This document shows positions 8,101 through 27,300 of a stretch of DNA of 29,409 nt, in pieces (the stretch's first letter is position 1; every line of letters starts with the position of its first letter). The stretch is from a virus: IMG/VR virus record IMGVR_UViG_3300038353_000016, positions 1 through 29,409 of that record, one strand, 5' to 3'. A model generated the notes under the pieces. That model was not told the origin of the DNA. It worked only from the letters and a program-made list of their open reading frames with translations, and searched no databases. Position numbers and translations under genes: made by a program.

Positions 8101-9369
8101 ATGGCCAAGCAAACGATAGGTCTTGGATCTGCTGCTAACGACAACACGGGTGATACCCTGAGAGTCGGAGGCGATAAGGTCAATGACAACTTTAATGAAA
8201 TATATACTGCCCTAGGAAATGGTACGACACTTACTGTCGATACCACAAACCCTGCTGTGGGACAAGTATTAAGATATAACGGTGCCACATTCCTGCCTTC
8301 AGATTACACTAACCTGACTGCAGCATTAGATGTAAATGGAAACTCTATAGTTTCTTCAAGTAATGGTAATATAGCGGTAGCAACAAATGGATCAGGAGAT
8401 TTAACATTATCAGCAGGTGGCGTAACATCAATATTCAAAGGTACAAAGGCAGCACCAAACGCTGCAGAAAGTGGAACAATTATATTCCCAACATCAATAA
8501 CATACGATAATGAATATAGCACACTAGCAGGAGCACCTGCAGTTGGAACTTATAGAGGTTACTTCTTTACAGTCAGTGGTGATGATAATCCATATGTAAA
8601 TATGAATATCACTGCAGGTGGTGTAGGTAACTCTCAAGTAAAACTATTAACTGAAAGATCAAGCATTAATATGCTGTTTGACGTTGATACAACTACAACA
8701 CCTCCTAATAATGATCAAGTTTTAAAGTGGAACTCTAGTAGTAGCAAATGGTTACCTGCTGATGATGCTGCAGGTATTGGTAGTATAAACGTATTCGCAT
8801 CTGTTGCAGGTGACACAGGATCTACAACTGCCAACAGTCAGACAGATACACTGACTATTGCAGGTGGTACTAATATTACTACTGCAGTTTCTGGAGACAC
8901 TGTAACGGTGAACTTCTCTGGAACTTTGACAACAACACTCGCTGCTCTAACTGATACAAATACAGCAGGTCTAACTCAAGGTGATATGTTGTATTGGTCA
9001 GGATCTGAGTGGATTCCTACTCCTACAACTGGACCTATCATATGGTATGAGATAGGTGCACCTGTAGAGAATGCTAGTAATGACTTCTTGATCAATGGAC
9101 CTGGTCTTCCTGCAGGGGAAAACCGTGACCCAACATTATATGTGCATAGAGGATTTACTTATGCATTTGACAATAGTGTTGAAGGGGGTGGACACCCATT
9201 TAGGATTCAATCAACACAGGGTTTATCTGGCACACCATATACTACAGGACAAACTGGTAGTATAAGTTCAATCTTATATTGGACTGTACCTTTTGATGCT
9301 CCATCAACTCTTTATTATCAGTGTACACTCCATGCTGCAATGCAAGGAACTATTAACGTAGTATCATAA
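8101..9369 (+). CDS. Virion structural protein with C-terminal cupredoxin-like domain
   Basis: A 422-residue protein. The N-terminus (MAKQTIGLGSAANDNTGDTL) is a motif I associate with large phage structural and fibre proteins of marine T4-like phages. The middle is Thr/Gly/Asn-rich beta sequence containing the repeated pattern NDQVLKWN/GDMLYWSG. The last 110 or so residues look like a cupredoxin: GGHPFRI with H365, then LYYQCTLHAAM with C408, H411 and M414, in the order His...Cys-x2-His-x2-Met of type 1 copper sites. No signal peptide is visible, so this is a virion protein and not a free plastocyanin. It is 22 nt after the giant gene, behind a late promoter motif, and 4 nt before the next gene, which carries related domains. 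Copper binding is inferred from ligand order only. Confidence 0.75.
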   Translation: MAKQTIGLGSAANDNTGDTLRVGGDKVNDNFNEIYTALGNGTTLTVDTTNPAVGQVLRYNGATFLPSDYTNLTAALDVNGNSIVSSSNGNIAVATNGSGDLTLSAGGVTSIFKGTKAAPNAAESGTIIFPTSITYDNEYSTLAGAPAVGTYRGYFFTVSGDDNPYVNMNITAGGVGNSQVKLLTERSSINMLFDVDTTTTPPNNDQVLKWNSSSSKWLPADDAAGIGSINVFASVAGDTGSTTANSQTDTLTIAGGTNITTAVSGDTVTVNFSGTLTTTLAALTDTNTAGLTQGDMLYWSGSEWIPTPTTGPIIWYEIGAPVENASNDFLINGPGLPAGENRDPTLYVHRGFTYAFDNSVEGGGHPFRIQSTQGLSGTPYTTGQTGSISSILYWTVPFDAPSTLYYQCTLHAAMQGTINVVS

Positions 9370-9373
9370 CTAA

Positions 9374-12300
9374 ATGGCAAGAGACGTTCCAGGAACAGGC
9401 GCAGTCATTGAACCAATCTTTGATGAAGTATTTGGAGTTCGTGCTGTAAAAGTATTAAATGGAGGATCAGGTTATAACCAATCTGATCCACCTAGACTTA
9501 CTGTGACTGGATGTGGTACACCTGATGTAGAGGCATTATTATATCCAATCATTGATGATGGTGCAGGGCAGATCATCCATGTAAGAGTTTTAAATAGAGG
9601 AAGAGGATATGATCCGTTACGTTTGCAGATCATTCCTGAGCAAGAAACACCAAACGTAGTAGATTCATTTGATTTTAATAGAATATGGCAAGGTCATCCT
9701 AACTCACCAACAACAGGAACCTTTGCTACATCTGGTACAGTAAAGACTGACAGATTAACAATAGTATCTGATAATCATCCTAAACCATCTCAAATATTCC
9801 CAACTGAGTATCAACCAGGTGGAGCAACTACAATTCTTGATAGAACTTTTAATCAAGAGTTTGTATTTCGTGGTGGTAAAGATGTTCCAAATCCAGGTAC
9901 AAGACAGTTTTCAACTAATCAAGCAGTTGGTATATTAGCAAATGGTGGTCTATTACACACTGCTGATTGGGGTACAGCAGGTGGTGCACCTACAAACTTA
10001 CCTATTGATGTTATAAAATATAACTACATCAAAAATACAAACCTATATGATGCAATATTAGATAATCAAGTATATTATTATCATACAAGTAAAACTCTAG
10101 AAGAGTTCAAACTTACAAATGGTGTATTTGAATGGGGACTTCAAGAACAGTTTACATGGACTGTTAAGACTGAACTTGATAATGTAATGTTACTAGTTGA
10201 TTCTGTAGATGAAACTTTAGGTAATGTAGAAGTAGGTAGAATAGTAGATGAGGTGGCAGGGACTGCAAGAGGAACTATTGCAAAGGTTGTCAGAAATAAT
10301 TTAAATGTTATAACTAGAGTATACTTGAGAGACACAAGTGGCGGTGCTTTTCAAGATCAAGATCTATGTCTAGGTTCAAATGGATTTAAGTTTCGAGTGG
10401 CAAGTGATCCTATCACTTTCCCTAATGGTCTGTTTTATATCGAGTTTGGTGCTGATGCATCAGAGTTTGGTAATTTTACGCCAGGTCAATACTACCTTGC
10501 TCCAGAAAATATTAAAGTTAAGAAAAACTACCTCATAATATGGAATCAAGCAGATAGTTCAAATAGTTCACATCCTATGCAGTTCTCTACAACTGCTGAT
10601 GGTACACTAAATGGCGGAACATTATATTACAATAGTACAGGTTCTTCTGCTACTACATCTACTGTTAATATTGCAGTAACGATAGGTGTAGATAGTGTTG
10701 CAGGACAATCTACGGGTGTATATTATTTTGATGGCGTTGAAAAACCTGCCAACTATGCTCTAGTAAGAGGTTCAACTTATATCTTTGATCAGTCAGATAA
10801 TAGTAACGAAGTATATGGTGGTGCAAATCATCCGTTAATGTTTAGTGTCGGATCAGGTGGAGATCATGGTGGTCATGGTCATTATATGAATGGTGTTACT
10901 TATAAGTTAGATGGTATTGTTGTTTCTATGGCAGCATATGTTAGCGGATTTAATGCTGCTACAAGTCGTACAGTTACATGGACTGTGCCTACCAGTGCAC
11001 CTGCGACATTATATTATTGGTGTCATTATCATACAGGACAAGGTAATAGTTTTACTGTTACTTCTCCTCCTGCCCATGCTGCAGATTATGAAAATTCATT
11101 AAGACCAATATTCATAATGAATGCTGATGAGACACAAAAAATATATTATTATTGTGGTAATCATCGTTATATGTCAGGATATTCTGGTGATGAAGGTTAT
11201 ATGATCTTGGATACCTCAACTGACGATGATGATGACGTTAATATGAATACATACTATGTCGAGGATTTTTATGGTACTGCAAATGCAGGAACATTAGATT
11301 ATTCTAGACATACTGATGGTCACTCCAAGATTATTGGGATGTCCTTTGATGGATATCCAATATACGGACCATGGGGATATAATTCTTCTGGCACAGCAGC
11401 AAGGGAAACTTCTAGTTATAGATTAAGAACCACTGCTGAGTTACAAGGTGCTAGACCGATTGTAAACACTGCAGGTACAGAAACTTATACAGTTACTATT
11501 GCAGGTGGTCAGTTTACATTCAATGGATCATCACCTGAGTTTTTGAATCTGAAAAGAGGAAGAACGTATATATTCAACCAAGACGACGCAAGTAATACAG
11601 GGTCGAATCATATACTTATTTCTACGCAAACAGATGGTTGGCATTCAAATAATCCAGTAGTTATTGGTTTAGAATCAGTCTTGTATTCGGGTCAAGGCAT
11701 ATCATATCAGATCAATGGCAGTAACGTTACATATCAACAATATCTGAGTTTATTTAATGGAGCAACAACCAGAGGCATAACATTTACAGTTCCTGTAGAT
11801 GCACCTAGCGTCCTATATCTTTTCGGATACATTTCCTCAGGTCATGGTCTAAGACTTGTTAACGATGGTTATATTCTTGGAGACCTCACATCAGATTACA
11901 TTTATGATTCTAGTGTAGGAACTTTAGATGAATATAATGGTAAGTTTGGAGTAACGCCAGAGTATCCTAATGGAACTTATGCATACTTTATGACAGAGAA
12001 TGCTATGGGTATGCCTACATATCCATATGCCATAGGTCCCAAGTATTATGGCGTTCCTTTGTTTGAAGGTAATACCGTCCCTGCACAACCTACTGTATTC
12101 CCATCACTAGCAACAGGTGATGTTGTATTAAACCCTAACGGATCAGTATCTTATGTTAAGATGACTGTAAAGGGTGATAACTATTTTGGTCCTGCAAAAG
12201 CAAAAATTCTTGGTGGAGAAGGATCTGGTGCATTAGGAACTCCTACAGTTCAAACTGTTACTGGTCTATCTCTACTCAATCAAGGTAGAAGTTATGCAAC

Positions 12301-13960
12301 TCCTCCAACACTCATCTTTGAAGGTGGTGGTGGACAGGGTGCACAAGGTGCTGCTGAGATTGATACACTTGGTAAGGTAACATCTGTCAATATTGTAAAT
12401 CCAGGTGAGTTTTATCAAGAAGAACCTTATATTCTTATATCTGGTGGTGGAGGTATAGGTGCAAAAGCAGAGGCAACTATATCACAGGGTGCTATCACAG
12501 GTATTAATATCACTGATCCAGGTGAAGGATACACCTCAGTTCCAAACATTATATTCACAAAACTTGTAAATCTTAAACGTAAGACTAGAGCAAGACAGGC
12601 ATTTAACTCATCTGCGGTATACCTCACAGGTCTTGTCAAAGATGTTACCGCAAATGATGCAAACATATATGTTGACTCTACAGATGCATATCCTGGATCT
12701 GGTCAAGTAATAATTAATAAAGAAACTATAACTTATACCTCCAAAACAGCAGGTAGATTTAGTGGTCTAACTCGTGGTGTTAACTTCAACTATGATCAAA
12801 GAGTCATACTTGATTCTAACCAAAACGATACTACTACTGGGATATCAAACTATAAGTTCAATGTTGGTGACAGAGTTATACGTCGTGTTGAGAGTGCAAA
12901 TAATAAAGTTGCTAAAGTATATGACTGGAACTCTTCAACCAGAGAACTTCTTGTTACATTTGAAGTTGATGAACTAGCATTTATCGATGGTGGTAGAGCA
13001 GCGACTGAGGATGCTATTGTTCAGTTTGATGCGGGTGTTGCTGCGTCTTCTGGTGCAGGTATTTTACCACACGTTGTTATTGATTCTGTAGGAAATAGTA
13101 TTACAACATTGACAGATCCTATCGGAACGTTAACAGATAAAGATTTTGAAGATGATGATGAAAACTCTGGAGCAGGAGATGGTATACCTGATCTAGTCAA
13201 TACTAATACAGACTTTGCTGGCCAGATTAGTCTTGATGGTGGTATATACAGTTCACTTTATGGTATTGAAGAAACTCAAGGTGGTACAAACACAACTCTA
13301 TTCCAAGTTGGTGATAGTATCAAAGATGGTGACATACCATTTAAGTATGCAACAGTCACCTCTGCAGGTGGATTGAGTGATGGTGCAGCACACAGTGCAG
13401 TGCTAAATATCACATTAGACGTATCAGCAGGTGCAACTACAAACTATCAAACGAATGAAGTTGTAACTGGTGCTATTTCTGGAGTTCAAGCAACTGTTGT
13501 TTCGTGGAATAATCAAACTGGTGTATTACAAGTCAAAGATATAGTTCCATATAACACAAATAATGTTAACATTGGTATCGGTGGATTACTCTATGAGTTC
13601 TCCCAAAATAGCAGTGTGATTGATTTCATTATTGCAAATCCTGGAACTAACTATACTGGAGTCCCAACAATAGCAATAGAAAATACAGGAGATATACAGG
13701 CAACTGGTACTGTAGTTATGACGACTGCAGGAGACCAAGTTGCATCAATCACCATTAATAATGGAGGGTATGGAATCCCTCAAACAGTAGATGGCACCTA
13801 CGCTTTACACCCAACTGTAACATTTACAAATGCTAGTGGAGATACTACAGGTGCAAATGCTGCAGCACAAGCAGTATTAGGTGGAGAGAATCTTGTAGGT
13901 AACGGTGGAGCAACTTACAGGATTAAGAGCATTGAATATCTTACAACTGTTCGCTCGTAA
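9374..13960 (+). CDS. Giant structural protein with nested cupredoxin-like and YHYH domains
   Basis: 1528 residues, starting 4 nt after the preceding stop. The N-terminus has two GxGY modules (NGGSGY near residue 35, NRGRGY near 75). A TSGA-type module lies near 290-335. A first cupredoxin half carries H400 (SSHPMQF). A complete second cupredoxin follows, with H486, C550, H553 and Q556 ([10 protein letters not shown]) and a His-rich loop (HGGHGH). Then comes [10 protein letters not shown] with C594, H597 and M600, which looks like the second half of the first domain. A YHYH-type segment ([17 protein letters not shown]650-G665) is followed by a third, ligand-poor cupredoxin (H746; G818 in place of Cys) and then the YHYH remainder ([17 protein letters not shown] from 851; YAYF 869-872). 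GxGY repeats fill about 926-1069, an EIxxYT module about 1088-1143, and further GxGY-like repeats the C-terminus. Role in the virion is inferred; metal binding is untested. Confidence 0.8.
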
Positions 13961-13997: not shown

Positions 13998-15530
13998 ATG
14001 GCAGCCTTATTAACGGATCAGTTTAGAATTTTTTCTGCGAAAAAGTTTATTAAAGCATTAGAAGGTCCTGACTCAACTCAATCTGACACAGTTGCAGGTG
14101 CAACGAGAGATCGTTTGTATCTGTTTATTGGTAGACCACAACCGTGGGATAATGAAAACTCACCGCCTCAAGCGGTAGACTCATTCTCTGAGTTCTCAGG
14201 TTCATATGACGACATGGTATCGATGAAGCGTGTACTTGCTTCTGATACTGTGCAAGTTTGTCGTAGAATTGACTGGGTATCCCCAGAACAAACTACTGGT
14301 GGACTTGGTTTCACTTACGACATGTACAGACATGATTATAGTCCCTCCAAAACTGCTGCCTCTGGTGCGACTAAACTTTATGATTCTGACTTCTATGTTG
14401 TAAACTCTCAATATCAAGTATACAAATGCATCTATAATGGAACATCTCCGTCCGATCCAAATGGTAAACCTTCTACTGTCGAGCCTACTGGTACTAGTAC
14501 TAGCATCATTACTACTGGTGATGGGTATCGTTGGAAGTACATGTACACTATTCCAGTTGCAAGCGTTCTTAAGTTTTTCTCGAACGATTACATGCCAGTA
14601 TTCACCAACACTGCTGTTCAAACAAACGCAGTATCAGGTGAAGTCGATACTGTTGTTATTAACGCTGCAGGGTCTGGGTACAACAATGGTACTTACGACA
14701 ACGTAGCGATTAACGGTGACGGAACTGGTGGTCGTGTATCAATCGTTGTAGACGGTGGTAAAGTTATCTCTGCTACTGTTACATCTGGTGGTACTGGATA
14801 CACATTTGGTAAAATTACTGTTGACAACATCACTGGTATTGGTACTGGTAGTGGTGGACAAGTTGACGTTATCATGCCTCCTCCTGGTGGTCATGGTGCT
14901 GATGCTGTTACAGAAATCGGTGCATTTAGGGTCATGATCAACGCTAAACTCTCATATGATGAGGGTGCAGGTGACTTCCCTGTTGATAACGACTATCGTC
15001 GTATAGGTCTTATCACAAACCCACTTAAGTTTGGTACATCGGAACTTATCTCTGACTTGACGATATCTGCTGCTAAAGCGGTTATCTTCTCTCCTACATT
15101 CCAAGGTAACTATGTTCCAGATGAAATTATTACACAATCACGAGTCGTTGGTGGTACAACAGTTACTGCTAGAGGTCGTGTTATATCATGGAATGCTACA
15201 ACAAAAGTTTTGAAATATTATCAGAACTCAGTTGATGGTATATTTCCAGAAGTTACAGGTACACAGAATGAGTTTGATGGTTCTAACGTAGTCAGTGGTG
15301 CAACCTCTGGTGCTGCGGGACAACCTGATGTAAACTTCCCTGCTGTTCCAAACTCTTCTTCTAGAACTATTAACAACACAGAATATGACTTAGGTATGAA
15401 GTTTAACAATGGTTATGCAAAACCAGAAGTTGCTTCAAACTCTGGTGACGTTGTGTACATAGATAATAGAAGATCAATCAGTCGTGCAAACGACCAAGTA
15501 GAAGACATCAAAATCGTAATCGAGTTCTAA
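13998..15530 (+). CDS. 8: Baseplate wedge subunit gp8 homologue, enlarged by two insertions
   Basis: 510 residues, against about 334 for T4 gp8. Landmarks recalled from T4 gp8 are present in order: LYLFIGRPQPW (about 40-49; T4 has a similar FGRSEPW), CRRIDW (88-93; T4 PRRDW), GDGYRWKYMYTIP (from 174; T4 GDGYVWEYLFEIP), YRRIGLITNPL (from 333; T4 FRQISIITNPL) and the C-terminal GDVVYIDNRR...DQVEDIKIVIEF (from 483; T4 GEMIYMENRP...DQTEEINILFTF). In T4, gp8 is a dimer in each of the six baseplate wedges. Residues about 216-307 are a GxGY-repeat insertion (AGSGYNNG, GGTGYTFG) and about 370-445 a TSGA-type insertion, both related to modules in neighbouring genes. The stop overlaps the next start by one base (TAATG), suggesting coupled translation. 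Confidence 0.85.
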   Translation: MAALLTDQFRIFSAKKFIKALEGPDSTQSDTVAGATRDRLYLFIGRPQPWDNENSPPQAVDSFSEFSGSYDDMVSMKRVLASDTVQVCRRIDWVSPEQTTGGLGFTYDMYRHDYSPSKTAASGATKLYDSDFYVVNSQYQVYKCIYNGTSPSDPNGKPSTVEPTGTSTSIITTGDGYRWKYMYTIPVASVLKFFSNDYMPVFTNTAVQTNAVSGEVDTVVINAAGSGYNNGTYDNVAINGDGTGGRVSIVVDGGKVISATVTSGGTGYTFGKITVDNITGIGTGSGGQVDVIMPPPGGHGADAVTEIGAFRVMINAKLSYDEGAGDFPVDNDYRRIGLITNPLKFGTSELISDLTISAAKAVIFSPTFQGNYVPDEIITQSRVVGGTTVTARGRVISWNATTKVLKYYQNSVDGIFPEVTGTQNEFDGSNVVSGATSGAAGQPDVNFPAVPNSSSRTINNTEYDLGMKFNNGYAKPEVASNSGDVVYIDNRRSISRANDQVEDIKIVIEF

Positions 15531-18500
15531 TGGCACAAAATACCAACCTAAACGTCACACCATATTACGACGACTATGATAAAACGAAAAACTTTTATCG
15601 AGTGCTATTTCGTCCTGGATTCCCAATCCAAGCGAGAGAACTTACTACCATGCAGTCTATACTGCAGAATCAGGTAGAGAATGTTGGATCACATCTGTTC
15701 AAAGATGGATCAATGGTCATTCCTGGTCAGGTTGGTTATGATCTAAATGTTGATGCTATCCAGTTACAAGAATCATTTTTGGGTGCTGATGTAGAGAACT
15801 ATCGTGCTCAGTTAAATGATAAGATCATTACTGGTCTTACATCTGGTGTAAAGGCAAAAGTATTATTCAGTATATCAGCAACAGAATCAAATAAAGGTTA
15901 TATCACACTTTACGTTAAGTATATTGAATCAGGTGGTGCACAAAATAATCAAGAAACATTTTCAAATAATGAACAGTTAATAACAGATACAGAAATAACA
16001 TTTGGTACAACTTTGATTGAAGTTGGATCACCATTTGCACAACTACTTCCTACTTCTGCGTTACAACAAGGTTCTGTAGCATACATACAGGACGGTGTTT
16101 ATTTTATCAGAGGATTCTTTGTTGATGTACAATATCAATACTTATTATTAGATCAGTATGGAAGCAACCCCTCCTATCGTATCGGACTTGATATTCAAGA
16201 ATCCATTATTACTCCAGAGGATGACCTTAGTCTCAACGATAACGCTGCAGGAACATCTAACTATGCTGCTCCTGGTTCTCATAGATTTAGAATCACCACA
16301 AGACTAGTTAAGAAACTACTCACAGACGATGCTGATAAAGACTTCCTAGAACTATTAAGAATCAATAATAGTAAAGTTGAAAAACTTGTTGATAGAAGTG
16401 CATATGATGAACTAGAAAGAACAATAGCAATCAGAACATTTGAAGAGTCTGGTGATTATGTTGTAAAAGATTTTGCTATCACAATGAGAGAAAATCTTGA
16501 TGATGGTTTTAATAATGGTGTATATGAAGCAGGTACTACAACTTCAAGTGGTGATACTGCTGCAGAGAGATTATATTCAGTAGAGTTCGGACCTGGTACT
16601 GCATATGTAAGAGGATATAGAGTTAAGACATTATCACCAACATATGTTGACTTAGAAAAACCAAGAGATACACAGTCAGCACAAAATACTATCATACCAT
16701 TTGAGATGGGTAATGATATTATTGTAACTAACGTTTATGGTTTTCCTAATGCAACTGGATCTACATTAACAAATGCATATCAAACTATCGAACTAAGAGA
16801 TGATTTTACATCATCTGGTGGTAGTCAGGCAGGTAACCTTGTAGGTTTTGCAAGAGTTGCTGCTATGGAGCATACATCAGACGGTGACGATACAACCTTT
16901 GGTAATGCTGATGACACATATAGAATGAATCTATTTGATGTACAGATGTTTACTGTCATTGAGTTAGCAACTGCACAGACTATAGATTTAGGATCACTAT
17001 TGGTTGGTCAAACATCTGGTGCTAGAGGATATCTTGTAAATGCTTTGAGTTCTTCTGATCACGCTACATTATATGGTGTAGAGGGAACATTTGTTGTTGG
17101 TGAAATGATAATAGTTGATGGTTTAAACAAAGATACTATTGAAGTTGTACATTCATATTCTTTCTCAGATACAAGACAACTTTTAGCAAGAGATGAAAGT
17201 TCAAACACTGTAGAATTTACTTCTGACATTATACTTAATGATAATGTAGGAGTTCAAGGTTCACAGTTTACTTACGATGCTACAAGTAGTAATGAAAAAA
17301 TTACTGGTTTACAATCAAACTTTGCTTTAGATCTAAAACCTGGTGACAAAATATTATTCAGTGCAACTAAGTTTGTTACTGTAGATAAAGTTAACCCTGC
17401 TAGTTTGACTGGTAGTCAAAACTCTACTATCTTTGATTATGCTGCACAAACAGTAAATGTAACTCCTGGCGCAGGAAGTGCTGCTCCATCTGCAGGAGAT
17501 TATACTGCGTTACTAAGACAACGTGCTAAGTTGAATAATCTTGATAATGCTGATCTTCTTAGTGCAATGCCTAAGAAATATATTAAGAGTATATCTGATG
17601 AATCTATGATTGTCAGAAGAACATTTGATGCTAGATCAGTTGCTTCAAACTCAATATCAATCACTCTTCCTGCTAACGAGCAGTTCCAATCTATCTCTGA
17701 TGAAAACTACACAATCACAGTTCTTGCAGGTTCAAACTCTACTCATCCAGTTGGAGATCAAATCACTATCAATACTACCAATAGTGGTGCTATTGGTTAT
17801 ACCACGTTCACCTCTGCTGATAGAACTACTATCCAGATTGAGAACTTAACAAGTATTACTTCTGTTAAAGTTACTGCGACAATATCTAAGAACGTTACAA
17901 CTAAGAAAACAAAAGCAGGACAACAGATGTTTGTTATCAAGGTTAACAAAACAATCGAGAACCTTGATAAGCAAAACTATGGTTTAGTATATTCAAACTT
18001 ATATGGAACTAGAGTACAAGATAGAGATTTATCTCTCGGACTTGTAGATTCATATAGATTACACGCAGTCTATGAATCACTTGATGATAATGATCCAGTA
18101 ATACCAAGTGTAACTTTGGTAGAACCTACCTTCTTCGCTACAGGAACTATCGTAACAGGTAGAACTTCTAAAGCAAGAGCAAAAGTAGTTGCCTTCAGTT
18201 CTGGAACATTGAAGTTAAGTCTTGTTTATATTAGTGGTACATTATTAGCAGGTGAAACTATTGATGGATTTGATAGTACAAACACTGCGATCAGTGCTAT
18301 TATTAATGACTCTGCAGGATCTGTTATTGCAGGATCAAAAGTTATTACTGACAACTACTTCCTAGAAGTTGCACAAACAAACTTCATGTACGATCAGTCA
18401 AAAATTGTTCGTAAGAAAGGTGTATCAACACCAATCAGAAAACTATTGATGGTTGTTGATTATTATACACACTCTGCAACTGGTGATTACTTTGGTGGTC

Positions 18501-21500
18501 AATCATATCTTGATACATCTTATGGTGATATCCCATTCTTCGGTGTAAAATATCTTGCAGATTATCTAGACTTTAGACCATCATGTAAAAATCTTTTCAG
18601 TGGAACTGGATCTGTTGCATCTCCTGCATTTGTAAACTGCTCAACATTTGACTTTAAATCAAGAGTATTCAATGTATCAGGTACACCAAATGCTACTGTA
18701 TTTGATATACCAAAACTTAATAGTAACTTCCGTGCAGACTTTGATTGGTTCCTACCTAGAATCGATAAAGCATTCTTGACACCTGCAGGTGAGTTCCAAT
18801 TAGTTAAAGGTAAATCATCTGAGTCACCTCAAGAACCTGATGATTTAAAAGATGGTATGCTTTTAGCAACCATGTCACATAAACCATATGGTTTTGATGC
18901 AGAATCTGATGTAGTTATTACTAGATCTGATAACAAACGTTATACCATGAGAGATATCGGTGGTATTGAACGTAGATTGGATCAGGTTGAATACTATACA
19001 TCACTCAATATGCTTGAGTCTGATACTTTTAACACTAAAATTATTGACGTTGATGGTAAAGACAGACTTAAAAATGGATTTATAGTTGATGATTTTACTG
19101 ATCATAGTAAGTCTCAGACATCACATGAAGATTTCTCTGCTGCATTATCATTTGCAGACGGTCAATGTCATCCTTCTCACTATACAACTAACGTTCCATT
19201 ACAAGTTAATACAACAGTATCTCAAAACTATCAGCAAACAGGTCCTTGTATAACTCTACCATATTCTGAGTTAACAATCATTGAACAACCATATGCTTCT
19301 AGAGTTGAGAACATCAACCCATTCAACGTATTTACTTACATTGGACGTGTTGATCTTACTCCTGCATCTGATGACTGGTTAGAGACACAACGTTTACCTG
19401 CACAGGTACAACAAGTAGAAGGTGATTTCCAAGCAGTATCATCTGAACTTAGAGTTGACCAGAATGGTTTTGCTCCTATCCAATGGGGTGCATGGAGAGA
19501 TCAGTGGACAACATCTAGAGTTGTTGCAAGTACAACTACAAGAAATACTTTCTGGTTAGCAGAAGATATCGGTAGATCACCCAGACCTGATGTATGGAGT
19601 GGTCGTGGTATGCGTCGTGTCAACAGAGAAGAAACTATTGCAACTACAACTAGACAAACAAGAAGTGGTGTTAGATCAAGAGTTATTCCTAGAATTGATA
19701 GACAGTCACTAGGAGATAGTATTATATCTGCTACACAGATTCCATGGATCAGATCTAGAAACGTTAAAGTTAATGTTGAAAGACTAAAACCAAGAACTCG
19801 TTTTTATTCATTCTTTGATGGTAGAAAAGTTAGTGATTATCACACACCAAAACTAATCGAACTTATCAAAAACCCATCTACTGATGCCCGTACAAACTCT
19901 ACTCCATTCATTCCAGGTGAGACTGTAAGAGGTCAAACTAGTGGATGTGTTCTAAAGGTAGCAGCACCTAATGATTTGTATGAGTTCAATCCATATGATG
20001 ATACAACAATGCCTACATCATATGCTTCAACTACAGCAATCTTAAATATCGATACTGATGATCTTGCTACACAAGCAGTCGGTTCGTTCTATGGTAATGT
20101 TCAAGTTGGTGAAGTATTAGTTGCTGACTCTGGTGCTCGTGCTGTTGTTAAAGATCGTAGATTAATATCTGACCGTTTCGGTAAGATGGGTGCATCATTC
20201 TTTATACCTCCTGCATCTGTAGACACTAACCCACGTTGGGCAACTGGAACTAGAACTCTTAGATACTCAACATCTGATAGTGATTCTAGAATAGGTGGTG
20301 CAGTATCATCATCTGCTGAAGCAGAATATGAAGCAAGAGGTACATTGAACAGAGTTCGTGAAAACATTCTTGCTGTTAGAAATGCTGAAGTTGTTCGTGA
20401 TACAGTTACACAAGAAAGAAACTTCAATACAATCAGAACTGAGACTAGACAGATTGGTTGGTATGACCCTCTTGCACAGTCATTTATTTCTGATGAAGAA
20501 GGTGGTGTGTTTATTACATCTGTAGAAGTTTACTTCAAAACTAAGGATGCTAACATTCCTGTTTCTATGCAGATTAGAACTATGGAAAATGGTTATCCAA
20601 CAACAAGTATTCTACCATTCTCTGATGTAACTAAAGAACCTGCTGATATTCAGTTATCTGAGACTGCTGCAGTTGCAACTAAATTTACATTCAAAGCACC
20701 TGTTTATATTCCACAATCTATTGAACATTGTTTTGTTCTTCTATCTGACTCTAACACATATACGATTTGGATATCAAGAATGGGTGAGATTGATATTACT
20801 GGTGACAGAACTATATCTGAGCAACCATATGCAGGTGTTCTATTCAAATCACAGAACGCATCTACATGGACTGCAGACCAGTATGAAGATCTTAAGTTCA
20901 AAGTTAATAGAGCAGAATTTGTAAACACTGCTAGTTCTATAGTAACTTTAAATAATGCTCCTCTTGATATTGGTAATGGTGGTAAACTAACTCTAGCACA
21001 AGATCCAGTACAAACATTTTTACCAGAACAAGATTTACTTCTAAACTCAACTACTCTACCTTACACAGTTGGAGCAAGAATATATCAGAAGACAACTCTT
21101 GCACAAGGTACTATTGCTAAGAGAACTGATAATGCAGGTGGTGTAATATTAACAGTAAAAGATATTACTGGATCATTCCAAGCAGGTTCTAGCACTGGTG
21201 GTGTTATTACTCAAAGAATCGTCTCATCTAAAACAACTGCAACTATGGTTGTAAGTGGTGCATCTGGTGACTTTACAGTTGGAGAAACAATCACTGGTAA
21301 CTCTGCTACTGCTCCTACTGCTGAAGTTGTAACATGGACATCTGGTACAAATACACTAACACTAAGATATGTTTCTACAGACTTTACTGCCTCGACTGAA
21401 ACAATCACTGGTGGAACATCAACCGTGACTGCAACTGTAAGTTCTATAACTTATGCAGGTGACGCTGTTGAAGGGGGTGCAGTATCTGATTCATTCCCAA

Positions 21501-22756
21501 CTGCAACTCCAACATTCTCATCAAGTCAGAGAAAAGTAAGAATAGCACATAGTAATCACTGTATGCATAGTGCTTCAAACAATGTCATCATTACTGGTGT
21601 AACATCAGAAGTATCTCCAACATACTTGACTGCTGCTATATCAGCAACTGATACTACTGTAAACGTTAACGATGCTTCTGCATTCCACACAACTATTAAT
21701 GGTAACGTAATCAGTTCAACTGTAAAAGGTTATGCAAGAATTATTAGTGATGCAGGAACTGAGATTGTATCTTACACAGCAATATCAAGTGACTTCAAAA
21801 CTATAACTGTATCAGAGAGAGGATTAGATGGAACGACTGCAGTATCACACGTTGATGAATCAGTTGTTGAATGTTATAACCTTGATGGTATACCACTAAT
21901 CGAGATTAACAAAACTCATACTGGTATATTAAATCCAACATTAGATAGTTACGAGATCGCTACAAGTTCTATTGCTAAACTTGGTATTAGATCTGGTGGA
22001 ATAGGTGTTGTGGCAACACAGAATATTCAGTATGATATCTTAGTTCCTCAGATTGAAAGAATGCTATTACCACAAACAAATGTGACTGCAAGAATCAATG
22101 GTATAAGTGGTACATCAATCAATGATGGTGCAACAAGATTACAAGAATCATTTGCAAATGATGGTATATTCTCTGATATAATATTGAGTGAGGATAACGC
22201 ATTACTATCACCTCAACTTATATGTTCAACGATTAATGAATCATCAGAACTATCTGGTGAAAAATCATTTAGATTGGATCTTACAATGACTAGTCTTAAG
22301 ACTAATGTATCTCCAGTTCTTGATACAGATAGAATGTCAATGACAACTGTTATGAATAGGATTAATAATCCATCTGATCCTAACACTGCGAAACTATCTA
22401 CTGGTGATTTACATGATGCTGTTTATATTACTCGTGCTGCAGATCTTTCAAATCCCTCTGGTGCTATAAAGGTATTGTTCGCAGGGTATCGCCCAAGAGA
22501 CAGTTTCATAAAGGTACTATATAGAGTACGACCTACTGGATCTACAGATTCTATCGAAACATTCGGATTTGAGTTCTTCCCAGATTCCTCAGCATCCGTA
22601 CCTGCAACTACAGAAAACATAGTTTTCAGAGACTATGAATATGAAGTTTCTGGATTGAGTTTCGACCAGTATCAAATCAAGATTGTATTTGTTTCACCAA
22701 ATCAATCTGCTACACCTATTATTGAAGACTTCAGAGCAATCGCTCTTGCTGTATAA
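15530..22756 (+). CDS. Giant DUF4815-type baseplate-associated structural protein
   Basis: 2408 residues, starting on the last base of the gp8 stop codon. The N-terminus (YRVLFRPGFPIQARELTTMQ, then NQVENVGSHLFKDGSMVIPG) is the signature I know as DUF4815 in giant structural proteins of T4-like cyanophages. The N-terminal region continues to about residue 600 with GTAYVRGYRVKT. The body contains several TSGA-type modules (ITGLTSGVKAKV, LVGQTSGARGYL, VTGRTSKARAKV, VRGQTSGCVLKV), a long region of lower repeat content, and a His/Cys cluster HSNHCMH near nt 21550. An EIVSYT-type module (about 21626-21870) precedes NKTHTGI. The C-terminus ends IIEDFRAIALAV. Its place after gp8 suggests a baseplate-periphery role comparable to gp9/gp10, but I cannot show homology to either. 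Intact, with no internal frame break. Confidence 0.8.
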   Translation: MAQNTNLNVTPYYDDYDKTKNFYRVLFRPGFPIQARELTTMQSILQNQVENVGSHLFKDGSMVIPGQVGYDLNVDAIQLQESFLGADVENYRAQLNDKIITGLTSGVKAKVLFSISATESNKGYITLYVKYIESGGAQNNQETFSNNEQLITDTEITFGTTLIEVGSPFAQLLPTSALQQGSVAYIQDGVYFIRGFFVDVQYQYLLLDQYGSNPSYRIGLDIQESIITPEDDLSLNDNAAGTSNYAAPGSHRFRITTRLVKKLLTDDADKDFLELLRINNSKVEKLVDRSAYDELERTIAIRTFEESGDYVVKDFAITMRENLDDGFNNGVYEAGTTTSSGDTAAERLYSVEFGPGTAYVRGYRVKTLSPTYVDLEKPRDTQSAQNTIIPFEMGNDIIVTNVYGFPNATGSTLTNAYQTIELRDDFTSSGGSQAGNLVGFARVAAMEHTSDGDDTTFGNADDTYRMNLFDVQMFTVIELATAQTIDLGSLLVGQTSGARGYLVNALSSSDHATLYGVEGTFVVGEMIIVDGLNKDTIEVVHSYSFSDTRQLLARDESSNTVEFTSDIILNDNVGVQGSQFTYDATSSNEKITGLQSNFALDLKPGDKILFSATKFVTVDKVNPASLTGSQNSTIFDYAAQTVNVTPGAGSAAPSAGDYTALLRQRAKLNNLDNADLLSAMPKKYIKSISDESMIVRRTFDARSVASNSISITLPANEQFQSISDENYTITVLAGSNSTHPVGDQITINTTNSGAIGYTTFTSADRTTIQIENLTSITSVKVTATISKNVTTKKTKAGQQMFVIKVNKTIENLDKQNYGLVYSNLYGTRVQDRDLSLGLVDSYRLHAVYESLDDNDPVIPSVTLVEPTFFATGTIVTGRTSKARAKVVAFSSGTLKLSLVYISGTLLAGETIDGFDSTNTAISAIINDSAGSVIAGSKVITDNYFLEVAQTNFMYDQSKIVRKKGVSTPIRKLLMVVDYYTHSATGDYFGGQSYLDTSYGDIPFFGVKYLADYLDFRPSCKNLFSGTGSVASPAFVNCSTFDFKSRVFNVSGTPNATVFDIPKLNSNFRADFDWFLPRIDKAFLTPAGEFQLVKGKSSESPQEPDDLKDGMLLATMSHKPYGFDAESDVVITRSDNKRYTMRDIGGIERRLDQVEYYTSLNMLESDTFNTKIIDVDGKDRLKNGFIVDDFTDHSKSQTSHEDFSAALSFADGQCHPSHYTTNVPLQVNTTVSQNYQQTGPCITLPYSELTIIEQPYASRVENINPFNVFTYIGRVDLTPASDDWLETQRLPAQVQQVEGDFQAVSSELRVDQNGFAPIQWGAWRDQWTTSRVVASTTTRNTFWLAEDIGRSPRPDVWSGRGMRRVNREETIATTTRQTRSGVRSRVIPRIDRQSLGDSIISATQIPWIRSRNVKVNVERLKPRTRFYSFFDGRKVSDYHTPKLIELIKNPSTDARTNSTPFIPGETVRGQTSGCVLKVAAPNDLYEFNPYDDTTMPTSYASTTAILNIDTDDLATQAVGSFYGNVQVGEVLVADSGARAVVKDRRLISDRFGKMGASFFIPPASVDTNPRWATGTRTLRYSTSDSDSRIGGAVSSSAEAEYEARGTLNRVRENILAVRNAEVVRDTVTQERNFNTIRTETRQIGWYDPLAQSFISDEEGGVFITSVEVYFKTKDANIPVSMQIRTMENGYPTTSILPFSDVTKEPADIQLSETAAVATKFTFKAPVYIPQSIEHCFVLLSDSNTYTIWISRMGEIDITGDRTISEQPYAGVLFKSQNASTWTADQYEDLKFKVNRAEFVNTASSIVTLNNAPLDIGNGGKLTLAQDPVQTFLPEQDLLLNSTTLPYTVGARIYQKTTLAQGTIAKRTDNAGGVILTVKDITGSFQAGSSTGGVITQRIVSSKTTATMVVSGASGDFTVGETITGNSATAPTAEVVTWTSGTNTLTLRYVSTDFTASTETITGGTSTVTATVSSITYAGDAVEGGAVSDSFPTATPTFSSSQRKVRIAHSNHCMHSASNNVIITGVTSEVSPTYLTAAISATDTTVNVNDASAFHTTINGNVISSTVKGYARIISDAGTEIVSYTAISSDFKTITVSERGLDGTTAVSHVDESVVECYNLDGIPLIEINKTHTGILNPTLDSYEIATSSIAKLGIRSGGIGVVATQNIQYDILVPQIERMLLPQTNVTARINGISGTSINDGATRLQESFANDGIFSDIILSEDNALLSPQLICSTINESSELSGEKSFRLDLTMTSLKTNVSPVLDTDRMSMTTVMNRINNPSDPNTAKLSTGDLHDAVYITRAADLSNPSGAIKVLFAGYRPRDSFIKVLYRVRPTGSTDSIETFGFEFFPDSSASVPATTENIVFRDYEYEVSGLSFDQYQIKIVFVSPNQSATPIIEDFRAIALAV

Positions 22757-23295: not shown

Positions 23296-24393
23296 ATGGC
23301 AAATAGAATTCAGTTAAGAAGAGGTGGTGCTCAGGAGTGGGCAAACTCTAACCCAACCCTTGCACAGGGTGAACTTGGCATCGAACTTGATACTGGAAGG
23401 TTCAAGATTGGTGACGGTGTAACCGCGTGGAATACTTTAACTTATGAGAGACCTGTTGAATCTACATCTAATACTGCAAATACATTAGTACAAAGGGATG
23501 CTGATGGTAACTTTGCAGCAGGTACGATTACTGCAACTGTCATAGGTAACGCTTCTACTTCTTCACGTCTTGCTTCTACTCGTCAAGTCCAACTTTCTAG
23601 TGATGTACTAGGAACTGGTGTATTTGATGGATCACAAAACTTAAACTTAGTTTCTTCATTAGCACTTCAATCAACATTACCTCACTATGATGGTTCTGCA
23701 TCTGCTACAGGAACCTATACTAAGGTAACAGTCGATGCTAAAGGTAGAATAATAAATGCTGAAAACCCAACAACACTTGCTGCATATGGATTGAATGGAA
23801 CTGTAGAAGGTTCATCTGCACAACCATATGACTTAGACCTTGTTGCAATCGCAGGTCTTACTACTACAGGTTTAATATCAAGAACCTCTGGTGGTGCAAT
23901 GTCAACCAGAACTATTGCGGGAACGTCTGGAAATATATCGGTAAACGACGGTGGTGGTATCAATGGTAACCCAACTATTGATATTATCACAACTGCTGTT
24001 ACAGCAGGTAACTATAATACGGAATCCCTGACATCTGTATCAGGTGCAGGTGGAAGTGGCGAACCCTTTGGTACACCTACGGTTAACGCTGTTAAGTTCA
24101 CTGTAGATGACCGTGGTAGACTAACAAGTGCCACAAACGTACCAATCGCTACTGCTGCCGAGGGTAGTAAGTATGCTACCTATAGTGCAGGTACAACTTA
24201 CGTTAGATATGACATCATTGCTAACGCATCAAAGGAATCGCAGCAGGTAGTGGTGCTCCCACTCATACTAGCGGTGACTCTGGCGGGTGGCGATATCTCG
24301 CTGCCGAGGCAACAGAGCAGAAAGGATTGGCTTCATTTGCACAGGAAGATTTCGACGTTGACAGCAACGGGCACGTCACGATCTCCGCCTTAG
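23296..24393 (+). CDS. Giant tail-fibre protein, N-terminal frame (Mtd-type N-terminus)
   Basis: The N-terminus (MANRIQLRRGGAQEWANSNP, then AQGELGIELDTGRFKIGDG and AWNTL) is the short domain found at the start of many phage fibres and of the major tropism determinant (Mtd N-terminal family), probably for attachment or trimerisation. It is followed by fibre modules: QRDADGNFAAGTITATVIGN and FDGSQNLNLVSSL. This frame makes sense up to ASK at residues 311-313 (nt 24226-24234). After that it reads as unrelated sequence for 52 residues and stops at 24391-24393. The real continuation is in the -1 frame from 24225 to the right edge of the window. I therefore treat this as the first part of one broken or frameshifted gene of at least about 2040 residues, not as a 365-residue protein. 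Confidence 0.8.
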   Translation: MANRIQLRRGGAQEWANSNPTLAQGELGIELDTGRFKIGDGVTAWNTLTYERPVESTSNTANTLVQRDADGNFAAGTITATVIGNASTSSRLASTRQVQLSSDVLGTGVFDGSQNLNLVSSLALQSTLPHYDGSASATGTYTKVTVDAKGRIINAENPTTLAAYGLNGTVEGSSAQPYDLDLVAIAGLTTTGLISRTSGGAMSTRTIAGTSGNISVNDGGGINGNPTIDIITTAVTAGNYNTESLTSVSGAGGSGEPFGTPTVNAVKFTVDDRGRLTSATNVPIATAAEGSKYATYSAGTTYVRYDIIANASKESQQVVVLPLILAVTLAGGDISLPRQQSRKDWLHLHRKISTLTATGTSRSPP

Positions 24394-27300
24394 GAGTAGA
24401 TAACACACAACTCCAAAACAACAGAATTAGTTTTGCAGACGGAAATACTAAAGAAGATTTTGAGTTAGATCAAGAACTAACCTCAAGCACAGGTTACCGA
24501 GGATTTAACTATCTTAACTACGTTAAAGTAAATAATACATCGGGTAGTCTTCTTTTTGGTGCTAATAATACAGGAGATAGTGGCAATGGTGAAGTAGATA
24601 TAAATGTAAAAACATTATTCAGTGATCCAGATTTTATCTTAGATGGTGCTACAGCACAACAGATTGATAAAACTGGTGATGGTGATCTTAACATTGAACT
24701 AACACAGAATAGTTCATCAGCGAGAAACTTCACTGTTGCTTCTACCAACTCAGGATCTGGTACTAGTACACTAACTCTTACTGCAGAAGACGTTGTTGAT
24801 ATTGATGCATCTGCTGCTACTGGTAAAGTTCACATTGAAAATGTAAGAGTTCAAACAAATTATATTGGATCAACAGATTCAACCATGCACCTTGACCCAG
24901 GTGATGATAGAGCGATTACAGGGTTAGTACGAGTTCACGGAGATTTACAAGTAGATGGTACGACGACGACAGTTAATTCAACGGTTACAACAGTGGATGA
25001 TCCCATCATCACTCTTGGTGGCGATACTGCTCCTGCTAGTGATGACAATAAAGATCGTGGTGTTGAGTTCAGATATTACGATAATCAAGCAAGAGTTGGT
25101 TTCTTTGGATACGATGACTCATACACCGACCTCGGAGGACACGTCGGAGGATTCACATTTTTACACAACGCCACAAATACTTCAGAGGTCTTTAGTGGAA
25201 CAGCGTCAGGTATAACTGCAGGTAACTTAAAACTTACAACAAATACAAACTCAACATCTAATACTACTGGAGATTTGGTAGTTGCAGGTGGTGCAGGTAT
25301 AGGAGATGATGTTAATATTGGTGGTCTACTAGATGTTGATGGTACATTCAGAGCAAATAGCACATCTAGATTTGATGATAATATTGTTATTCAAGGTGCT
25401 TCTAAAACAGTTCAAATCAATAATGGATCTGGAACTACTAAGATTGAGTTCCAATCTACAACTGGTAACGCATCTATTGGTGGTGTAACTGATGTCACAG
25501 GTAACTTCAACGTTAATACTAACAAGTTCAATGTTGTTGCTGCTTCTGGTAACACAACTATTGCAGGTACACTTGGTGTTACAAACATTGCTACCTTCTC
25601 TAATAATATTGATGCTAACGGTGACGTTGCAATCTCAGGAGATGTACATCTAGAAAGCACAAACGATATTACTACTGCCAAGAACGGAACTACTGGTGCT
25701 TGGGAGATTCAATCAAATGATTATGGTGCACTTAGACTTGATGGTGGTGCATACATTGCAGGATCTGCTCTGATTGATGGTACATTACACGTTAATGGTC
25801 CTCTTGAGATTAAGGATAGTGCAACAGAAACTGAATCTAGATTGAACTGGTTGAGAGTTAGATACAGAGGTCGTTTTGGTGACAGTTATCAAGCATCTCC
25901 ATCTTATGCATCTCATAACTTCTCTACCTTAAAGGCACATGGTGGTGCAGGTATTATGAAATCCCTGTACGTTGGTGCTACTGGATCTAACGAAAGATTT
26001 GCTGTTGGTAAACTCAATAGTGGTGATACTGAGAAGTTCACTGTTATTGGTGCAACTGGTAACACAACTATTCAAGGTACATTACTTGTTGAAGATAATG
26101 TAAACTTCAATGGCACTCTCGATGTTGACGCAGACTTTGCAGTCAGAAATGGAACGACTGATAAGTTCTTCGTTGATAACGTAACTGGTAATACTAATAT
26201 TGAAGGTACGCTGACTGCTGATGGTCACACAGAATTAAATAGCACTCTTAATGTTGATAGTAATACAACTCTTGGTGGTACACTGACTGTTGCTAACAAC
26301 ACAGAAATCAATGGCACCTTAGATGTTGATGCAAACTTTGCAGTCAGATCAGGTACAACTGATAAGATGACTGTTGCTTCTTCTACAGGTAACATAGCAA
26401 CTGATGGTACACTAACAGTTCAAGGTGAAACACAGATCATTGACTCTCTTATTATCAATGCATCTAACGAAGAGTTTGCAGTCCAAAATGGTTCTGGAGT
26501 AGACAAGTTTACAGTTGATACTGATAACGGTAATACAATAATCCAAGGTCAAGTAACTGTAGCAGGTGCTACTCAAATCAATAATTCTCTAGGAACGACT
26601 GGTGTAAATACGCTAACTAATAATGCAGATCAAACACTGACAGGATCTTATAGTGCTGATGGTGCTGTAAGACTTACTGGTGGTGCAGGTATCGGTAAGA
26701 ACCTTGCTGTAGGGCAAGGATTAAGAGTCTATGGTGGCACTGAACTTACAGGTGCACTAGATCTTAATAACAATGCTGACATATCAGGAACATTAACAGT
26801 CTCTGATCAAACCATTGTTAAGGCAGATAACAAGTTCTTCAAAGTTCAAACTGCTGCAGGTGTTGACAAGTTTACAGTTGACACTGATAATGGTAATGTC
26901 GTATCACAAGGTGAACTAACTGTAGCAGGTGATGCTGCACTTCAGTCTGACCTTGTAGTCACAGGTAACTTAACAGTCAATGGAACAACAACAACAGTTA
27001 ACAGCACAGTCACTACTATCGATGACCCTATTATTACTGTTGGTGGTGACACAGCACCCGCGTCTAACGATGGTAAGGATAGGGGTGTGGAGTTTCGCTA
27101 CTACGACGGTTCTGCTAAAATTGGTTTCTTTGGTTTTGACAGATCCTCACAAGAATTCTCGTTCCTAACTAGCGCAAGTAATAACTCAGAGGTATTAAGT
27201 GGTACTGACGGTGCATTAAGAGTCGGTTCTATTCGTGTTACAGGTGCAGGTACATCTGTTGACATTGATAATAACTTAAATGTTGATGGTACAGCAACAG

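Follow-up and report, generated by a model that had tools for sequence, protein, structure and literature searches.

The closest described relatives of the protein discussed here are the GC399 proteins of the Kyanoviridae (P-SSM4, S-SSM5, S-RIM2 and Syn9), which share the gene and a domain termed A with a 1528-residue protein encoded in the window, that is, in the whole 29,409-nucleotide stretch of DNA that was analyzed (positions 1 to 29,409 of IMG/VR virus record IMGVR_UViG_3300038353_000016, which has 65,854 bases). In P-SSM4, S-SSM5 and S-RIM2 the domains A and C, the parts of a YHYH domain and the gene order are as in the window. The S-SSM4-type GC399 (1154 residues) is collinear with the window protein and has a YHYH domain with an inserted C whose ligands are kept, but it is without domains X and A. 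Its sequence and gene order identify the window protein as the GC399 baseplate wedge subunit of a relative of the T4-like cyanophages. It differs from the four aligned phage records (L083-L086; labels of this kind denote loci) in carrying an additional domain, B, and comparison with its relatives supports a nesting of B inside A, insert and direct host being members of one family.

The two domain families concerned have been described in other settings. The YHYH family (PF14240) has been predicted to be a Zn hydrolase of tails (PMC7824862) and is named among host-recognition domains (PMC7029224); the window domain matches it, but is split into three pieces and lacks the CGGH...YHYH motif. The cupredoxins (plastocyanin, amicyanin, rusticyanin, auracyanin, copper nitrite reductase (CuNIR) and laccase domains) are matched by the predicted folds of B and C. 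The window protein and its domains are laid out as follows.

9374..13960, plus strand: T4-GC399 (phrog_708, 'baseplate wedge subunit'), 1528 residues; open reading frame (ORF), PHROG 708 match (E=0, 2407.9 bits) and synteny
9761..10117, plus strand: YHYH domain, first piece (about residues 130-248); collinear with S-SSM4 up to its residue 242, borders approximate
10121..10486, plus strand: domain X (about residues 250-371), apparently inserted together with A; absent from S-SSM4
10493..10651, plus strand: cupredoxin-like domain A, N-terminal half (residues 374-426), with H400; B-family profile match at residues 374-420
10652..11071, plus strand: cupredoxin-like domain B (residues 427-566), with H486, C550, H553 and Q556, inserted in A; presence or absence of 140 codons
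11072..11215, plus strand: cupredoxin-like domain A, C-terminal half (residues 567-614), with C594, H597 and M600; adjoins residues 374-426 in rows lacking B
11291..11479, plus strand: YHYH domain, second piece (residues 640-702; H650 of GHS, D659 of FDG); PF14240 86-144 at residues 644-702
11480..11872, plus strand: cupredoxin-like domain C (residues 703-833), ligands lost in the clade of the window; profile match 11456-11848, E=2.6e-21
11873..12043, plus strand: YHYH domain, third piece (residues 834-890); PF14240 141-185 at residues 834-878

The motifs on which a first-pass annotation of this DNA was built, namely H400 within SSHPMQF, C594/H597/M600, H486, C550/H553/Q556, FDGYPIYG from residue 658 and a YHYH part from residue 851, all lie where it had placed them. 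The alignment of the protein has 85 rows: the window itself, the four phage records and 80 IMG/VR loci, taken as the best of 164 relatives; S-SSM5 is present twice (L034 and L084). B, which is 140 residues long, was present in 14 of the 85 rows and absent from 71, always at the same site; 70 of the 71 rows without B cover both flanks, and the remaining one (L033) begins at residue 417. Peptide patterns from B were among those used to fetch the IMG/VR loci, so that B is over-represented among the 85 rows, while none of the patterns included the ligands of A. Five of the 41 rows left after clustering at 95% bear B. In the DNA of rows lacking B the two flanks join in frame, reading GGTTCCTCTGCT up to the junction and GCTCATGCTGCAGAT after it in L013, and the window carries B between near-identical flanks. 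All four aligned phage records lack B. Domain A without B was found in 216 phage-collection records, with at least 80% of the query covered in 212 of them, and in all 40 of these 216 matches that were listed it was unbroken; S-SM1, Syn9 and P-SSM4 are among the phages that carry domain A.

The relationship between insert and host was apparent from profile comparisons. Of the 71 rows lacking B, 47 have both halves of A matched by a hidden Markov model (HMM) of the B family (for example residues 364-458 of L073, independent E value 3.8e-10). Where B is present, the HMM finds B together with just the first half of A in the window and in 12 of the 13 other B-bearing rows, and just B in L018. The profile alignment of A with B also spans both halves of A, pairing A 3-92 with B 37-135, or 14-112 with 22-135 when other rows were chosen. 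It pairs the ADYEN stretch of A, which lies just past the insertion point, with the AAYV stretch of B, near which a short helix is predicted (model positions 390-396 of a model of residues 130-905). Since A is contiguous where B is absent, and since the profile match covers both of its halves, B appears to sit in a loop of its own relative. Two observations weigh against this: the B-family HMM covers the first half of A only in 20 of the 71 rows lacking B and misses A in four, and no model shows the two halves of A packed together, the low-confidence model of residues 130-905 having given no readable contacts. The nesting of B in A had been proposed in the first-pass annotation, and the empty site in 71 of 85 rows together with the two-halved profile match bears it out.

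The nucleotide identities show B to be transferred between phages as one cassette. The B of L018 is 95.2% identical to that of L004 (90% at third codon positions), whereas the A halves of these two are 70.4% and 70.8% identical (57% and 50% at third positions). The A halves of L018 instead resemble those of relatives lacking B, with 88.0% and 85.4% identity to L025 and 88.9% and 88.2% to L024. A B like that of L004, set between A halves like those of B-less relatives, indicates that B moves as a cassette, and since L018 is again closer to L004 downstream (residues 615-833, 92-93%), the GC399 gene seems to recombine at several places. In the comparison of the window with L011 the A halves are 94-96% identical in protein but B just 77.9%, and among six of the 14 B-bearing sequences compared B is 78-96% identical. 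Of 255 phage records, two gave a B-like match of at least 60%; P-RSM6, the one listed, has its B-like domain (63.7%) in another protein, a 2538-residue protein of phrog_697 ('structural protein'). B-family domains were also found in other proteins among loci L120-L156.

Immediately upstream of GC399 lies a gene for a gp9-like protein, the C-terminal domain of which (gp9C) entered the comparison.

8101..9369, plus strand: gp9-like baseplate wedge tail-fibre connector, 422 residues; PF07880 (E=5.6e-10) and phrog_677 (E=7.6e-189)
9055..9366, plus strand: C-terminal cupredoxin-like domain of the gp9-like protein, with H365, C408, H411 and M414; conserved ligands and hhalign match

Using hhalign, the probabilities were 97.9% for A with B, 99.8% for B with C, 98.0% for B with gp9C, 89.1% for A with C, 89.2% for A with gp9C and 89.4% for C with gp9C, while no pair involving the control sets (X, the C-part of YHYH and the N-part of gp9) exceeded 1.5%. 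Other choices of rows gave 98.1% for A with B and just 62.7% for A with gp9C. The gp9C domain in turn matched, at 98.7%, a set designated A5, made up of relatives of a domain in a 1842-residue ORF of P-HM1. When A5 was compared with chains of the Protein Data Bank (PDB) it matched CuNIR (4.3e-6), plastocyanin 1b3i (1.9e-5) and amicyanin (6e-5), and the Pfam family Copper-bind was found in 17 of its 26 members at E <= 0.01, the first member scoring 20 against a cut-off of 21.2. Copper-bind was not exclusive, as seven of the 26 members also matched PPC and 12 an Ig-like family at E up to 0.01, and because the members of A5 were fetched with patterns that included the Cys/His motif, the conservation of ligands in A5 proves nothing by itself. 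When gp9C was searched on its own, all 10 members matched an At5g54830-like plant domain (best 1.6e-4, the first member below cut-off) and one of the 10 matched Copper-bind, at 0.073, while amicyanin and CuNIR chains were reached at E values of 0.02-0.66 only. This chain, from A, B and C to gp9C, from gp9C to A5, and from A5 to plastocyanin, amicyanin and CuNIR, supports, indirectly, placing A, B and C with the cupredoxins.

P-HM1 (L209) and loci L212-L293 form a large viral family with a motif of the TYYYQCSNHxxM type that reaches Pfam Copper-bind. One scan of genome contigs yielded two cellular relatives of the P-HM1-type family, in gammaproteobacterial and Chloroflexi metagenome-assembled genomes. 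PSS2 (L090:2998-3336) encodes a stand-alone 112-residue family member without a cysteine, directly after the tape-measure gene.

AlphaFold models were made of residues 130-905 (from 41 rows) and of residues 352-624 (from 44 rows), with the B fragments left out of both alignments; MAFFT had misplaced B fragments on C or A. The model of residues 130-905 has a mean predicted local distance difference test (pLDDT) value of 60, with the A halves at 66-81 and 68-91, B at 42-83 and C at about 85. Blue-copper proteins account for all 50 of its listed Foldseek matches (laccases, CuNIR, bilirubin oxidase, ascorbate oxidase and their kin). With VIA, B (model positions 297-438, residues 426-567) matched small laccases, rusticyanin and CuNIR moderately, at Z 7.4-8.0 over 107-120 aligned residues, and C matched auracyanin A at Z 7.4 with 104 of 123 residues aligned; for both domains VIA's own note applies that Z values under 8 may be background. 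No VIA row was centred on domain A. In a viral structure library the 112-residue entry C7F4C6, which has the same length as the stand-alone ORF of PSS2, gave a match with a target TM-score of 0.91. The fold matches of the model of residues 130-905 moderately support a Greek-key beta sandwich in B and, with the same reservation, in C. The model of residues 352-624 was set aside as uninformative.

Several results weigh against a cupredoxin assignment. The Foldseek matches have query TM-scores of 0.10-0.12 and root-mean-square deviations of 20-36 A, the low scores arising because the matches span several domains, and in the same model the YHYH pieces are mostly under pLDDT 50. The model of residues 352-624 has a pLDDT of 54, and its 50 matches listed are all under Z 5 and include no cupredoxin; they include beta-sandwich proteins unrelated to antibodies, such as galectins and carbohydrate-binding modules, and we did not count them as evidence against. 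No cupredoxin was found when the PDB was searched directly with the whole protein, B, residues 130-905 or B-less A, the weak matches of B-less A being antibody chains, nor did Pfam give a cupredoxin family for B, C, A with B inside, or 23 B-less A domains. A5 matched A at 48.0%, the His, Cys, His and Met positions of the two falling into alignment, and B at 10.4%. Comparison with cyanophage plastocyanins gave 0.6-7.6% for A, B, C and gp9C, although this was an unreliable set of five rows in which L205 is on the wrong strand and contains stops. The cupredoxin-like fold claimed in the first-pass annotation is therefore upheld by the homology chain and by the predicted-fold matches of B and C, but not by direct searches with A, B or C. 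The third cupredoxin-like domain of that annotation, C, stands as a family member with an auracyanin A-like predicted fold, but without a Cys/His ligand pair in the clade of the window.

The ligand positions themselves are strongly conserved. In A, H400 is present in 84 of the 85 rows, the other row having a gap, and C594, H597 and M600 in all 85, so that the whole set is kept in 84 of 84 rows covering all four positions. Among ten named cyanophages and L073 the His, Cys and His of A were found in all 11 and the axial Met in 10; S-RIM4 has lost it. As 31 of the 101 columns of A are invariant in any case, the four ligand columns are not decisive alone. The 1528-residue protein contains four cysteines (47, 332, 550 and 594), from which it follows that C550 is the sole cysteine of B and C594 the sole cysteine of A; exactly one cysteine lies within A in 85 of 85 rows, and the gp9-like protein of the window has just one in its entire length. 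A single cysteine in each leaves no disulfide within the domain. All 22 aligned members of the B family share H486, C550, H551, H553, Q556 and H503, and at least 90% have H498. In the clade of the window C has no Cys/His ligand pair in the ligand zone, whereas the C of S-SSM4 keeps H..C-x2-H-x2-M. In gp9C, H365, C408, H411 and M414 are kept in 98 of 98 distinct sequences (phmmer E <= 1e-30), and this conservation is perhaps more important than the nesting itself. Amicyanin has the ligand order His..Cys-x2-His-x2-Met, which is that of A, and stellacyanin has an axial Gln, as does the B of the window; the window's A differs from the known cupredoxins in being split by a paralogue. From such ligand sets copper would be the natural guess for A and gp9C, and B is probably metal-binding too.

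The YHYH domain that contains these inserts was delimited by comparison. PF14240 matches at 64.6 bits against a cut-off of 25, in two pieces around C, so that the split of YHYH by C proposed in the first-pass annotation is confirmed. Residues 1-242 of the S-SSM4 homologue correspond to 1-248 of L073 and its residues 242-1147 to 485-1381, and the lack of L073 residues 249-484 (X and A; about 250-625 in the window) marks X+A as an insert, with which a MAFFT alignment agrees for L093 and L099. A protein encoded beside the S-SSM4-type gene (L091, ORF 3-1784) has a contiguous YHYH domain, with PF14240 10-184 unbroken at 148.8 bits, that aligns to S-SSM4 residues 109-304 and 462-517. Taken together, the collinearity with S-SSM4 and the contiguous domain of L091 suggest that the YHYH domain of the window spans about residues 130 to 890 and holds both X+A(B) and C, the upstream first piece putting A(B) inside it as well. 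These comparisons support a YHYH domain split twice into three pieces, by X+A(B) and by C; the first-pass annotation had recognized the insertion of C but had missed X+A(B), which S-SSM4 lacks. The match to the family also holds, although most of the motif from which it takes its name is lost. The signature CGGHxxxxGxYHYH is not kept; in S-SSM4, F, L and Q stand at its three His positions. Across GC399 all 83 rows have Tyr or Phe in place of the first His of the YHYH motif (position 235), while at the second (237) 36 of them have Q, 31 have H and 16 have S, K or G. H650 is kept in 85 of 85 rows and D659 in 84 of 84. Given the loss of the motif, the predicted hydrolase role is unlikely for GC399.

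Domain X is the best-predicted part of the model (pLDDT about 92 over residues 260-379) and resembles residues 765-844 of the T4 baseplate chain 5iv5_BJ, which from its length we take to be gp7 (VIA Z 7.6, 74 aligned); a direct sequence search of the PDB with X found no cupredoxin. Further pieces occur in the YHYH domain of relatives. In S-RIM2 (L085:5098-6120) the C-part of YHYH is enlarged near window residue 848 by about 319 residues, which carry GDGYGDGDIDAQE, EF-hand-like by eye, and EHVFHTLHMH. P-SSM4 has 50 extra residues near residue 848, and L169:3275-3742 (143 residues) and L173:3305-3742 (134 residues) have a different insert before the second YHYH piece. No Pfam family scored over cut-off for the extra pieces of S-RIM2, P-SSM4, L173 and L169. 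The YHYH domain looks like a general landing platform for inserts.

Nesting, family relation, ligand conservation and mosaic structure are read directly from the aligned sequences. As the explanation that best accommodates them we propose, with fair confidence, that an old YHYH domain of GC399, its name motif gone, served as a chassis taking up cupredoxin-fold modules in its loops. Module C would have split YHYH before its last piece and module X+A nearer its start, and later, in some phages, the mobile B would have entered a loop of A, after the stretch with the His ligand and before the stretch leading to the Cys strand. Each insert would form a separate sandwich on the baseplate exterior. 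A and gp9C may bind metal, as may B, where Gln replaces Met; the metal, most likely copper, could stabilize or tune the module, and the modules may be exchangeable surface-contact parts rather than enzymes.

It is possible, though rather doubtful, that the nesting is real but that the domains are Ig-like scaffolds without metal, the Cys, His and Met being kept for packing or merely inherited. The ligands lost from C in the clade of the window, the A of S-RIM4 without its Met and the stand-alone PSS2 protein without Cys would all fit such scaffolds, and beta-sandwich domains are common on phage tails. A full ligand set in all 84 complete rows of A and all 98 gp9C sequences is harder to reconcile with it, as is a cysteine that stands alone in A (85 of 85) and in the gp9 of the window and hence has no partner for an intradomain disulfide; the loss from C itself indicates that the fold tolerates losing its ligands when they are not needed.

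Beyond the chassis with nested metal-binding modules that we favor, one may speculate that working blue-copper sites exist on both gp9 and GC399, with B adding a differently tuned one, and that a copper-charged, redox-active baseplate senses the host surface at attachment or exchanges electrons with it, the cassette being swapped to retune it; we consider this improbable. A redox or copper switch, in which T1-like baseplate sites change state at the host and help trigger the tail, is more improbable still: complete T1-like ligand sets do occur on two adjacent baseplate proteins, but C has lost its ligands, S-SSM4-type phages are without A and no electron-transfer partner was identified. We give very little credence to the segments being sequential, self-contained folds with a coincidental pairing of ligands across B, since the absence of any predicted structure with packed A halves is outweighed by A being one contiguous domain in B-less sequences, by a profile match that spans both halves and by the empty site, which largely refutes it. 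That B in GC399 is a metagenome assembly artefact is hardly credible: all B-bearing copies of the gene that were found, that of the window included, come from uncultured contigs, with none among the phage matches listed, but B occurs at the same site in 13 further IMG/VR loci, is 78-96% identical among six of the 14, has an in-frame junction and is borne by five sequences after 95% clustering.

Domain insertion is reported for 20% of multidomain proteins, with nesting of the form A1-B1-C-B2-A2 and up to six levels of nesting in cyanobacterial RNA polymerase (PMC13114784); the main text of that paper does not contain the words cupredoxin or phage. GC399 differs from those cases in that insert and direct host appear to belong to one family and that relatives differ in whether they carry the insert. 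Neither a phage-tail cupredoxin nor a cupredoxin nested in another, nor any paper on copper-type sites on the host-contact machinery of T4-like cyanophages, turned up among the papers listed from the open-licence literature, which were seen mostly by title and abstract. The suggestion in the first-pass annotation of a new architecture is thus upheld only in part: a cupredoxin within a cupredoxin on a virion did not turn up among those papers, but nested insertion as such is known. If our explanation is correct, T4-like viruses of Prochlorococcus and Synechococcus bear conserved copper-type sites on their host-contact machinery. GC399 would also offer a clear natural example of a domain that entered another member of its family and has since travelled as a cassette, its relatives showing both the empty and the occupied site. 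The question of copper is directly testable in cultured phages with domain A.

The remaining genes of the window that bear on the assignment of GC399 are the following.

13998..15530, plus strand: gp8 baseplate wedge; PF09215, E=1.2e-17
15530-22756: large ORF at the VrlC position; gene order

The order gp9 - GC399 - gp8 - VrlC is the same as that annotated in P-SSM4 and S-SSM5. A tblastn search with the 1528-residue protein matched 428 phage records, in 278 of which one place spans 80% or more of the query, and the organism names among them are Synechococcus, Cyanophage, Prochlorococcus and Marine, with Actinomycetia in one. The product name under the match in NC_ records of related phages is 'baseplate wedge subunit'; 'hypothetical protein' and 'gp7 baseplate wedge initiator' also occur. 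The putative location of GC399 on the baseplate follows from this annotation and the gene order. For S-SM1, 41 virion proteins have been reported (PMC3037559), and the virion proteins listed for S-CREM2 include a large 'baseplate wedge protein, intermediate' (PMC10665884).

In metaG-MbCM1 (L083:6001-10170) GC399 is annotated as two coding sequences with a gap between them, perhaps owing to a frameshift in the record. Positions 23296-29408 of the window hold two overlapping ORFs of 365 residues and 1694 residues (open end), which may reflect either a frameshift or a real split; the 365-residue ORF matches only the start (1-317) of phrog_697, a family that matches one 2538-residue protein in P-RSM6.

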